IMG/VR virus record: IMGVR_UViG_3300044712_000057
Span: 1-37,352 of that record
Length of the DNA stretch: 37,352 nucleotides
Source of the DNA: a virus
Direction: 5' to 3' (one strand)
The first letter of the stretch is position 1, and the number at the start of each line of letters is the position of its first letter. Made by a program: the position numbers and the translations under genes. The notes under the pieces are model-generated. The model worked only from the letters and a program-made list of their open reading frames with translations. It was not told where the DNA came from and did not search any database. Shown piece by piece: positions 30,309-33,457 of this stretch.

Positions 30309-30357
30309 GTCTCTTCGGAGACCTTTATGGCAGCCCTTAACTGGGCTGTCTTTTTTT
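30309..30357 (+). terminator. Tandem hairpins and terminator for rightward genes
   Basis: GTCTC-TTCG-GAGAC (30309-30322) is followed by GGCAGCCC-TTAACT-GGGCTGTC (30329-30350) and seven T (30351-30357). The T-run touches the stop codon of the convergent lysozyme gene, so rightward transcription ends right at the junction. Confidence 0.9.
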
Positions 30358-30832
30358 ATGATAAGAACAAAGCTCTTTCATCGTTACGACGACTAACTAA
30401 ACCTTTAAGCACTTTACCACCTGCTTTAGTCCAGTCTAGGAATCCGTCTGCAGCACCTTCAAAGTCTCCACGATTGACTTTCATACGAATAGTAGACTTC
30501 TGTAAGTTTCCTAACCCAACATTGAATGAAAAACTAACGAGAGCATCGAATTGTCCTTGAGTAAGAGGACCAGGGCACAAGCGAGCCACACCTTGTTCAA
30601 ACCTAGCAAGGTCTTTCTTAAGAATATCATCTACTTCCTCCATTGATAGAGTTCTATTCCAACCATCGGGAATAGGTAAATTTCTTCGTTCCTCTAGCTT
30701 TAAACGACCGTGCATCGGGTCAATCACATGACCGACACCAACAGTCCATAAAAGAGCAGGACATTGATACGGCTTTGTCCTAACCCCTTCATGGTGTTTA
30801 ATCATGTGAATTACTTTGTCGCTGATTTTCAT
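30356..30832 (-). CDS. Endolysin, GH24 lysozyme
   Basis: 158 residues. Catalytic triad Glu 15 (HHEG), Cys 24 and Thr 30 (WTVGVGH) has the same 9- and 6-residue spacing as T4 lysozyme (E11, D20, T26), with Cys in place of Asp as in some phage lysozymes. C-terminal half GPLTQGQFDALVSFSFNVG, then FLDWTKAGGK and GLVSRRNDER, is typical. It has no signal peptide, so it needs the holin to reach the peptidoglycan. ATGA overlap with the holin gene. Confidence 0.95.
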   Translation of the reverse strand: MKISDKVIHMIKHHEGVRTKPYQCPALLWTVGVGHVIDPMHGRLKLEERRNLPIPDGWNRTLSMEEVDDILKKDLARFEQGVARLCPGPLTQGQFDALVSFSFNVGLGNLQKSTIRMKVNRGDFEGAADGFLDWTKAGGKVLKGLVSRRNDERALFLS

Positions 30833-31311
30833 CGCTTAAATGCCTGACCGCCAAAATAGAATGCAATAATCGAAGCAAATATTTGTTGTGAGTCATCATC
30901 CCATAATAGGTTCAATGCTGTATCGAAAGCGACATCTCTATGGAAAGCATAAAGAAAACCGAATACATCCACAAACACAAGGAGAAGAAACATACCGTAA
31001 GTAATAGCAGGTCGAACCATTGCTCTCGCATTGATAACCCACAAAGAAGCACCTTTAGCTGACTCAGTATCGTGCTGCAATAAAGCCATATGTGTTTGCA
31101 TATCTGCATTGATTTGTACCTGTTCTGTGCGAATTTCTTCTACTTTAGCCTGTGCAGCATAGCCAGCAGCCATCATCTGCATTTCTCTTTCAGTCTGCAT
31201 ACGAGCTAGTTCAAGCTCATGCTTCTTGTCTGCTTTATCTTGAAAGATGTCTAATATCTTAGGGACACCGCCCATAAGAAAAGATATAACTGTTGATAGG
31301 ATTGTCATCAT
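30829..31311 (-). CDS. Holin, 3TM-superfamily type
   Basis: 160 residues. Hydrophobic N-terminus with GGVPKILDIFQDKADKKHE, a long charged helix (about 30-85), then transmembrane segments near 100-122 (RPAITYGMFLLLVFVDVFGF) and 142-156 (QIFASIIAFYFGGQAF). This order corresponds to the Holin_3TMs family. It should open the inner membrane at the end of infection. Coupled by ATGA to the lysozyme. Two adjacent ATGs at the start are possible. Confidence 0.8.
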   Translation of the reverse strand: MMTILSTVISFLMGGVPKILDIFQDKADKKHELELARMQTEREMQMMAAGYAAQAKVEEIRTEQVQINADMQTHMALLQHDTESAKGASLWVINARAMVRPAITYGMFLLLVFVDVFGFLYAFHRDVAFDTALNLLWDDDSQQIFASIIAFYFGGQAFKR

Positions 31312-31315
31312 GATA

Positions 31316-31741
31316 TTAGTCCTTGTTTGCTAATGGGTTATCTAAAGCTTTGCGAATCTTAGTATCTACTTCTTTTCTCATCTCACGAAGGTCTTTGTCT
31401 ACTTCACGAGATAACTGCTTACCGTCTCTCTCAACCTGTTCAACAACCTTCTCAAGCCTACGAACATCGTTCTTAATGTCGTTCTTGATATCTCTTGTAT
31501 AGTCATTCACTTTGTTAGTTGATTCTTCCATCAAAGCTAACTTCTTGTCATATTCAGTAAAGTCAGGAGATACATAGTTCTTAATAGCACTTCTCATGCT
31601 CATATAGTCGTTGTAGAACTCGAATGCACCCCAAAAAGCACCACCAACAACTGGTGCAATAGACACAATCATGACCATTAGTTTGCTAGTTAATTTGAAG
31701 CTAAAACCAGCTACATTAATCTCTTTTTCGATACTGCTCAT
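31316..31741 (-). CDS. Membrane-anchored coiled-coil protein (possible i-spanin)
   Basis: 141 residues. One membrane segment near residues 19-41 (SKLMVMIVSIAPVVGGAFWG) followed by a long charged coiled coil (DYTRDIKNDIKNDVRRLEKV, REVDKDLREMRKEVDTKIRK). That is the general shape of an inner-membrane spanin, which disrupts the outer membrane after lysozyme action, but no partner o-spanin lipoprotein was found. It lies 4 bases upstream of the holin and overlaps the exported protein by 26 bases. Confidence 0.6.
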   Translation of the reverse strand: MSSIEKEINVAGFSFKLTSKLMVMIVSIAPVVGGAFWGAFEFYNDYMSMRSAIKNYVSPDFTEYDKKLALMEESTNKVNDYTRDIKNDIKNDVRRLEKVVEQVERDGKQLSREVDKDLREMRKEVDTKIRKALDNPLANKD

Positions 31742-33017
31742 CTACCATCTCCTCGTGTTTTCTTTGATTCCCCATTATCAGAGCATAGTAGCTCCTGTTA
31801 TTATCTTGTATCGGCTTCTTAACCATTTGCTTAAACAGCATATCGACAATCAACACAGGCGGTGGTGGTTGATACATCTCTGTAATCACTGGTGCTGTCG
31901 TCGTGATTTCAGTCTTAGCTTCAGGCTTCTTTGTTGAAACCACTTGTTTTGTCTCTGTCTTCTTCTCTGTCTTTGATTCGGTCTGAGCTGCTTGAGCAAC
32001 CTGACTTGTAGGCGAAGAACTTGATACAGTGCTCGTTGCATTTGTAGTTACCGTTTGAGTTGCTGGTCTTGTGATGACTTCGTTGACAACTGGGTCAGAC
32101 ACGACAGGAGTTTCAACTGCAACTGTACCTGTTGTGCTAACTTGGACAGTTGGTGCTGACACAGTAACTGTTGGTGTTGACACAACATTAGCAAGTGCAT
32201 AAGCTGTTTCGTATCCAGGACATCTTCTGTCATACAGCGAGTTAAGGCTGCATTGTTGATTGAAATAAGCTTCTGCATATCCTGGACAGGTTCTATCATA
32301 TAAAGGGCTTATCCTACATTGATTGTCAAAATATGCCTGTGCATAACCTGGACAGCTTGTGTTATACAAAGTGTTCAAAGAGCATTGCTGAGACAAATAA
32401 GCTGCAGCATAGCCAGGACAACTAGAGCTTGATAGAGGGTCTATTAAGCATAAATCACCTGTAGATTGTGTAATATACGACACAATTTCATTACTAGTGA
32501 ATCCTGGACCATGATAATACTGTGTATACTCACCTACCGATGTATTACCAGTTCTACCTATTGTTACAGGTCTCCAAGGACTGATATTGACTTGCTCATA
32601 GTGCATACCGATGTAGCCACTAGGTCTAATCTCAACACCAAAAGTATTTAAGTTCTGTGGAGCACCGTATTCACTGATGTTCTCCCACTTATACCTCTGA
32701 TACTGTGGAGTTCCTTCAGTTAGGAATCTACCTTGACCATAGTTAATAAGGTCAGTCTGTAACGGCATGATAGCAAAATCAAATGGACTACCGTTACTAG
32801 TTCTTAAATCGAATCCTGTGCAACACCAACTATTGTTTGGATTGAGGAAGCCAACAACACCGTTACTGAACATATAAGATTCAGTAAAGACACGACCATG
32901 ATAAGGGAATGGAAACTGGAGTGGAACTCTAGCATACCCATCATCGTATATCGTATGTTGGACTATTTGTGCCTGTGCTATGCCAATACAGGCTAAGAAG
33001 GCTACAATCCATTTCAT
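31716..33017 (-). CDS. Exported protein with NIDO-like domain and Cys repeats
   Basis: 433 residues. Signal peptide MKWIVAFLACIGIAQA with cleavage after AQA. Residues 20-190 are beta-rich (DDGYARVPLQFPFPYHGRVF, FSNGVVGFLNPNNSWCC) and look like a nidogen-type (NIDO) domain. Residues 190-277 are four exact 22-residue repeats with Cys at 190/200, 212/222, 234/244, 256/266 and CPGY after each second Cys. Then a Thr/Ser/Pro/Lys linker and a conserved end PPPPVLIVDMLFKQMVKK. It would act in the periplasm or outside the cell. Function unknown; ATGA coupled to the next exported gene. Confidence 0.75.
   Translation of the reverse strand: MKWIVAFLACIGIAQAQIVQHTIYDDGYARVPLQFPFPYHGRVFTESYMFSNGVVGFLNPNNSWCCTGFDLRTSNGSPFDFAIMPLQTDLINYGQGRFLTEGTPQYQRYKWENISEYGAPQNLNTFGVEIRPSGYIGMHYEQVNISPWRPVTIGRTGNTSVGEYTQYYHGPGFTSNEIVSYITQSTGDLCLIDPLSSSSCPGYAAAYLSQQCSLNTLYNTSCPGYAQAYFDNQCRISPLYDRTCPGYAEAYFNQQCSLNSLYDRRCPGYETAYALANVVSTPTVTVSAPTVQVSTTGTVAVETPVVSDPVVNEVITRPATQTVTTNATSTVSSSSPTSQVAQAAQTESKTEKKTETKQVVSTKKPEAKTEITTTAPVITEMYQPPPPVLIVDMLFKQMVKKPIQDNNRSYYALIMGNQRKHEEMVDEQYRKRD
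32187..32450 (-). repeat. Four 66-base coding repeats (22-residue Cys repeats)
   Basis: Codes four units of exactly 22 residues, each with two Cys at fixed distance (10 within, 12 between). Units read like CSLNTLYNTSCPGYAQAYF. Period is constant with no insertions. Confidence 0.85.
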
Positions 33018-33457
33018 TTAATCTTTGGTCTGTCAGGAATCATGTTAGGATTAGCAAGCCAATAGTTCTTAGCTTCTATACCTACTTTACCTTCTACTGG
33101 ACAGTATGTACCTGCATCCCACATACCCCACCATAGGTTAGCATCTTGGCACATTACAGATACAGCAGCAGTCTTCATTTGCATATTGAATAAAGACTCA
33201 GCTTTTAATAACATTTCGCAATTAGCATCACGAACTGTAGTACCCATAGAGATACCAAATATTTGTGTTTGCACTGCAGCAGCAACACCGCTACTACACA
33301 TCTTGTTATTGATGGTTGTAATAGACGGTGAAATCGCTGATGGTGGAGGAGACTCTACTTTTGTCTTACTATTAGAAGTAGACTCAGTTACAATAGGCTG
33401 ACCATGAGCAGCTGCGACAGCTAATAGACATACGATGATTGTAACTATATATCTCAT
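33014..33457 (-). CDS. Exported four-Cys protein
   Basis: 147 residues. Signal peptide MRYIVTIIVCLLAVAAAHG, then a short Ser/Pro-rich linker and a helical domain with Cys 54, 80, 103 and 119. VRDANCEMLLKAESLFNM, AAVSVMCQDANLWWGMW and YCPVEGKVGIEAKNYW recall small exported proteins (RD-C...CQD...CP motif) often found in phages and of unknown function. Two disulfides are likely. Coupled by ATGA to the Cys-repeat protein, suggesting joint action at the envelope or in the virion. Confidence 0.7.
   Translation of the reverse strand: MRYIVTIIVCLLAVAAAHGQPIVTESTSNSKTKVESPPPSAISPSITTINNKMCSSGVAAAVQTQIFGISMGTTVRDANCEMLLKAESLFNMQMKTAAVSVMCQDANLWWGMWDAGTYCPVEGKVGIEAKNYWLANPNMIPDRPKIK

Follow-up and report, generated by a model that had tools for sequence, protein, structure and literature searches.

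The question raised by this locus is why a phage should encode exported, disulfide-rich proteins beside its holin and endolysin genes. The window analysed here is the whole 37,352-nucleotide stretch of IMG/VR virus record IMGVR_UViG_3300044712_000057, and a reading made from its letters alone had picked out two ATGA-coupled genes at 31716-33457, with the genes, strand (minus) and coordinates all correct. Both secreted proteins, here called P2 and P1, are real, but the description of them as a pair falls short, since a third partner, P3 (31316-31741), had been overlooked.

Organization of the P2-P1-P3 cassette

The cassette comprises three overlapping or adjoining minus-strand genes, after which come holin-like and lysozyme genes:

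33014..33457, minus strand: P2, exported small protein of 147 aa with a signal peptide, a PPSAISPSI spacer and a 4-Cys domain; matches phrog_20531 (E 1.4e-11)
33059..33298, minus strand: P2 conserved domain, residues 54-133, a beta hairpin plus helices with C54, C80, C103 and C119 invariant (90-sequence alignment, AF2)
31716..33017, minus strand: P1, exported multidomain protein of 433 aa
32502..32957, minus strand: P1 N-terminal NIDO-like beta-sandwich domain (profile match, the window sequence itself being in the profile; AF2 pLDDT about 90; weak Pfam NIDO matches in relatives)
32187..32450, minus strand: P1 repeats, residues 190-277, four 22-residue two-Cys CPGY units (repeat count; one helix per unit in the model)
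31842..32180, minus strand: P1 linker rich in Thr, Ser, Lys and Pro, predicted disordered (pLDDT mostly below 50)
31722..31796, minus strand: P1 C-terminal helix with the conserved tail H-x-E-M-V-D-x-Q-Y (alignment, AF2)
31316..31741, minus strand: P3, with one N-terminal transmembrane (TM) segment, a coiled coil and a C-terminal ALDNPLANKD tail
30829..31311, minus strand: holin-like membrane protein (phrog_6637, E 3.3e-21, no function named; phrog_3427, holin, E 2e-6)
30356..30832, minus strand: endolysin, phage lysozyme PF00959 (E 4.5e-39)

The P2 and P1 genes overlap by ATGA, and P1 and P3 by 26 nt. The cassette had been placed between ejection genes and the holin and lysozyme genes; it does lie between upstream late genes and the holin and lysozyme genes, but the "ejection" identity is without database support. 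Elsewhere in the window, the best PHROG for 846-2447 is labelled amidase (phrog_5107), a label that is doubtful because head closure and virion structural families match there too.

The four cysteines of P2 are invariant in an alignment of 90 sequences, and its AF2 model consists of a beta hairpin and four helices (pLDDT about 92 in the helices and less in the hairpin), so that the compact four-Cys domain of the sequence-only reading stands, though not as a purely helical one. The phrog_20531 profile is also matched by 21 of 22 P2 relatives, and exactly one P2 is present in each of 43 records searched, all of which were picked for carrying it. Foldseek against the PDB gave no match to P2 (best E 0.98) or P1 (best E 0.27), and PDB sequence searches with profiles of P2 and of the P1 N-domain likewise gave none. 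A second structure comparison returned Z scores of at most 2.9 for P2, which are too low to interpret, and of at most 5.0 for P1, mostly to sandwich domains of carbohydrate enzymes. Against viral structure models, P1 has six matches below 1e-3; one is from Synechococcus phage S-SRM01 and the other five are from uncultured phages, and the names of the matched proteins are uninformative.

P1 is built from a NIDO-like beta domain, four two-Cys units, a disordered linker and a C-terminal helix, and AF2 assigns a pLDDT of about 90 to most of the beta domain and repeats and below 50 to most of the linker. The units begin at residues 190, 212, 234 and 256; their spacing of exactly 22 and the C-x9-C-PGY pattern in each agree with the "four exact 22-residue repeats" described earlier, but their sequences are not identical. 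Among P1 relatives, which have 0-14 units each, 284 successive unit pairs are spaced by 22; the clade of the window itself spans copy numbers from 1 to 14, the proteins differing mostly by whole 22-residue units. The NIDO-like assignment of the N-terminal domain holds in part: the window P1 itself has no match to Pfam NIDO (PF06119), but NIDO is the best Pfam match for the same domain in relatives (E 1.5e-5 and 4.8e-4, and three of ten members in another scan), in every case below the curated gathering cut-off where one was shown. This domain differs by lineage, being NIDO-like in the window clade and in L149 and a putative carbohydrate-binding domain in HTVC033P and S28C10, and it is less well conserved than the P1 tail, P2 and P3. 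Where present, the NIDO-like domain occurs once per genome. The idea that P1 mimics a receptor was dropped, as its N-domain has no second copy in the same genomes, tail genes included.

Signal peptides are evident by eye at the start of both window proteins, and a simple rule finds them in 122 of 131 P1 and 132 of 141 P2 sequences, as against 208 of 1018 other open reading frames (ORFs) of the same loci; the earlier assignment of signal peptides to both thus extends to more than 90% of their relatives. Of 131 P1 proteins, 122 have an even number of cysteines past the signal peptide. Lipobox matches are not consistent in either (4 of 131 P1, 3 of 141 P2), so that no means of keeping P1 at the outer membrane is evident.

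P3 combines one TM segment near its N terminus with a coiled coil and an "NPL" tail. Each of the 137 loci whose sequence extends more than 3.2 kb downstream of P2 has an ORF that pairs a TM segment with an NP[LMYF] tail (a count that includes contigs fetched twice), and this rule selects 149 of 835 downstream ORFs versus none of 746 upstream and 5 of 1793 antisense ORFs. Among 114 distinct P3 proteins, the N-terminal flank of the TM segment is the more positive in 84 (N-in, C-out) and the reverse applies in 25. P3 has weak matches to coiled-coil families, and the Rz-like phrog_4297 (E 0.0042 only) is one among many of these. Because their genes overlap in the close clade, covariation between the tails of P1 and P3 was disregarded there. 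In the Roseobacter phages CRP-810 and CRP-207, two genes annotated as lysozyme (gp51, L182:6219-6641, and gp73, L183:3292-3873, respectively) appear P3-like by eye, and no lysozyme features were seen in them by eye; the P1 slot of both phages is filled by another protein. An "OmpA family" annotation in CRP-810 was also rejected, since no such domain was seen by eye.

Distribution and linkage to lysis genes

The sequence-only reading supposed that phages rarely invest in such proteins, which is mistaken: the cassette is present in hundreds of aquatic viruses, in many cases near the lysis genes. P1 relatives were found at 42 IMG/VR loci and P2 relatives at 47, and a P2 profile search recovered at least 600 IMG/VR stretches, with 600 of 600 confirmed by tblastn. 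P1 and P2 relatives occur together and keep their signal peptides, as the proposed pairing had predicted. Public phages with P2 include the pelagiphages HTVC115P, HTVC033P, HTVC023P and HTVC202P, together with Baldr, the T4-like Mosig, a Votkovvirus and a spring podovirus, and more distant versions are present in roseophages and N4-like Achromobacter phages. The complete P2-P1-P3 arrangement recurs in unrelated phages (pelagiphages, the Votkovvirus and Mosig). RSL1, mentioned in a JWAlpha note, was not found in the search for P2, and searches of the open-access literature turned up no account of the cassette.

Several variants and neighbours were recorded in passing. A type B cassette (L104, L108, L120 and L160; e.g. 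L160:5494-7721) has a short P1, after which come three more small proteins (about 165, 125 and 149 aa) whose starts resemble signal peptides by eye; the 125-aa protein has no match in public phages. L172 carries its cassette on a contig of 335 kb that is assigned to a Neomarinimicrobiota genome bin; a binning error or a large phage may explain this. Genes upstream of the cassette in L113 (3110-3790) and L172 (2215-2928) resemble bilin reductases by eye, and L113 also has heme-oxygenase-like and small heat-shock-like genes (by eye).

Within the window clade, homologous holin and lysozyme genes lie past P3 in 52 of the 59 loci with sequence there. Two of the remaining seven are second fetches of contigs already listed, and the other five, read individually, have another holin-like protein and a peptidase-M15-like endolysin in their place (by eye). 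The linkage of cassette and lysis genes therefore outlasts gene replacement. Outside the clade, P3 adjoins a peptidase M15 gene in HTVC023P, an amidase-type lysozyme is near P2 in HTVC033P, a holin-like gene precedes P2 in Mosig and S28C10 (by eye), and P2 and P3 precede a chitinase A gene in MW202675. The genes within 2.5 kb past P3 at about 50 such loci include glycoside hydrolase 19, phage lysozyme, M15 peptidase and GTA holin, a tally that has no control set, and for that reason the tie to lysis genes outside the window clade is suggestive only. Lipase_3 genes, possible envelope-lipid enzymes, lie within 2.5 kb downstream of P3 at five of the loci outside the clade. The cassette is not always so placed: it is just before terminase in HTVC202P and Baldr, and amid late structural genes in several phages.

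Search for spanins

Linkage to holin and endolysin genes is also a characteristic of spanins, and we scanned all reading frames for lipoboxes, recovering lambda Rz1, T7 gp18.7 and T1 gp11 as positive controls; the credibility of matches was judged by eye, and the contigs scanned may be incomplete. The scan gave no lipoprotein ORF in the window, in four of eight clade contigs, or in HTVC202P and Baldr, and in the other four clade contigs only minus-strand ORFs of unlikely make-up and one P2. There was no match in HTVC115P, the contig of L149, HTVC023P or MW202481, and solely unconvincing ORFs were found in HTVC033P, CRP-207 and S28C10 (S28C10, MW202481 and HTVC023P being scanned up to about their last 1 kb). 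The Rz-like PHROGs phrog_739 and phrog_89 have no match in the window. Relatives with a variant cassette are different: L079, L134 and L160 each have an Rz-like gene followed at once by a lipoprotein gene, a classical spanin pair. In L149 an Rz-like protein is encoded 3′ of P3, and no lipoprotein partner was found for it. Neither P1 nor P2 consistently has the lipobox of an outer-membrane lipoprotein that defines an o-spanin, and on this ground we do not classify the cassette as a spanin.

These observations bear on a recognized question. In the survey by Kongari et al. (2018), about 13% of the phages, many being marine, yielded no spanin, and the authors ask whether and how such phages disrupt the outer membrane in another way (PMC6139136). 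The cassette was not located in the spanin-less cyanophages of that study, a tblastn search with a P2 at E values up to 1 returning no cyanophage.

Possible role and relationship to known systems

It is well supported that the genes form a trio, that the products are exported, that the cassette belongs to the lysis region in the window clade, and that window-like phages have no recognisable spanin. We tentatively propose, at somewhat less than even confidence, that P2, P1 and P3 form an envelope-spanning complex of the lysis module that carries out the outer-membrane step. The proposal rests on the linkage of the trio, the P1 and P2 export signals, the TM segment and coiled coil of P3, the adjoining holin and endolysin, and the lack of a recognisable spanin lipoprotein in the clade. 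The cassette would be expressed late; P3 would be an inner-membrane protein whose coiled coil extends into the periplasm, much like an i-spanin, and P1, disulfide-bonded and lectin-like with a long flexible linker, would be the outer partner binding an envelope glycan or the outer membrane. P2 may be a disulfide-stabilised adaptor, and contact would be made through the conserved C-terminal tails of P1 and P3. Once the endolysin had degraded the peptidoglycan, the complex would be released and could act on the outer membrane, working like a spanin without being one by sequence.

Several observations stand against such a complex. P1 has no consistent lipobox, a length shifting with 0-14 repeats is odd for a periplasmic ruler, the cassette directly precedes terminase in two phages, and a classical spanin pair is co-resident in L079, L134 and L160, which counts in particular against plain replacement of spanins. 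Alternatively, spanins may be absent because the outer membranes of the hosts are fragile. The broader notion that the exported complex, with its lectin-like disulfide-rich outer component, is a third and non-lipoprotein route of outer-membrane disruption that replaces spanins in many aquatic phages is one we regard as doubtful. Of the three ideas advanced by the sequence-only reading, outer-membrane disruption nonetheless fits best, given the lysis-gene neighbours and the lack of recognisable o- or u-spanins in the clade, with the amendments that the proteins form a trio, that the trio is common, and that three relatives with a variant cassette also have a spanin pair.

Other roles can be weighed against the same evidence. 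The changeable P1 N-domain on a steadier base of P1 tail, P2 and P3 resembles a variable recognition head, as might be expected if an exported lectin-like P1 bound the phage receptor or a surface glycan to block further phages or to prevent progeny from sticking to debris; we think superinfection exclusion or receptor masking of this type rather unlikely, as the cassette is linked to holin and endolysin and not to early genes, the single NIDO-like domain has no copy among the tail genes, and no outer-membrane anchor is seen. A role in lysis timing, in which P2 and P1, as sensors in the periplasm, would delay or trigger lysis through the holin or P3 in the manner of the T4 antiholin RI, would account for the co-existence with classical spanins, and P2 is a small exported disulfide protein in a cassette adjoining holin genes; P1 is far bigger than timing seems to require and general PHROG scans gave no antiholin match, and we hold this role to be unlikely.

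Surface display or release of P1, which would promote aggregation or capture particles as an adhesin or part of a fibre, is in keeping with its adhesin-like make-up and variable repeat number, and with the three additional exported-looking proteins of type B loci (by eye). It seems distinctly improbable, with neither a secretion channel nor a surface anchor identified in the window, and is hard to reconcile with lysis soon after. The location amid late structural genes in several phages would suit P1 and P2 being ordinary virion parts, but signal peptides in more than 90% of both proteins and even Cys numbers point to export to an oxidising compartment, and JWAlpha gp25, a distant P2-domain protein, is not named among the virion proteins in the part of PMC3915230 covered by a text search; we consider a virion role very improbable.

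Conserved, exported and tied to lysis genes, the cassette is a concrete candidate for the question of Kongari et al. (PMC6139136) in pelagiphages and other aquatic phages without a recognisable spanin. The P2 4-Cys domain, the P1 tail HxEMVDxQY and the P3 tail NPL provide three markers that help annotate proteins presently called hypothetical, "lysozyme" or "OmpA family".

Relationships to described families and systems are partial. The window P2 matches the C-terminal part of phrog_20531, an entry with no assigned function, and P1 and P3 are unmatched by it. The P1 domain shares with nidogen-like (NIDO) PF06119 its motif pattern and, through relatives, weak profile matches, but those scored are under the cut-off and the window P1 itself is unmatched. 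T4 RI, a periplasmic antiholin with a cleavable signal peptide (PMC8385771), is a small exported protein of lysis, and P2 resembles it in being small and exported; P2 differs in its four invariant cysteines and its companions P1 and P3, with no sequence match in the general PHROG scans. Two-component spanins (lambda Rz/Rz1, T7 gp18.5/18.7) offer several parallels: P3 has an N-terminal TM segment and coiled coil, its gene overlaps that of a second exported protein, the cassette is near holin and endolysin genes, and the C-terminal tails are conserved. P1 departs from these spanins in its cleavable-type signal peptide without a lipobox, its several-fold greater length, its lectin-like and Cys-repeat domains, and its linkage to a third protein, P2.
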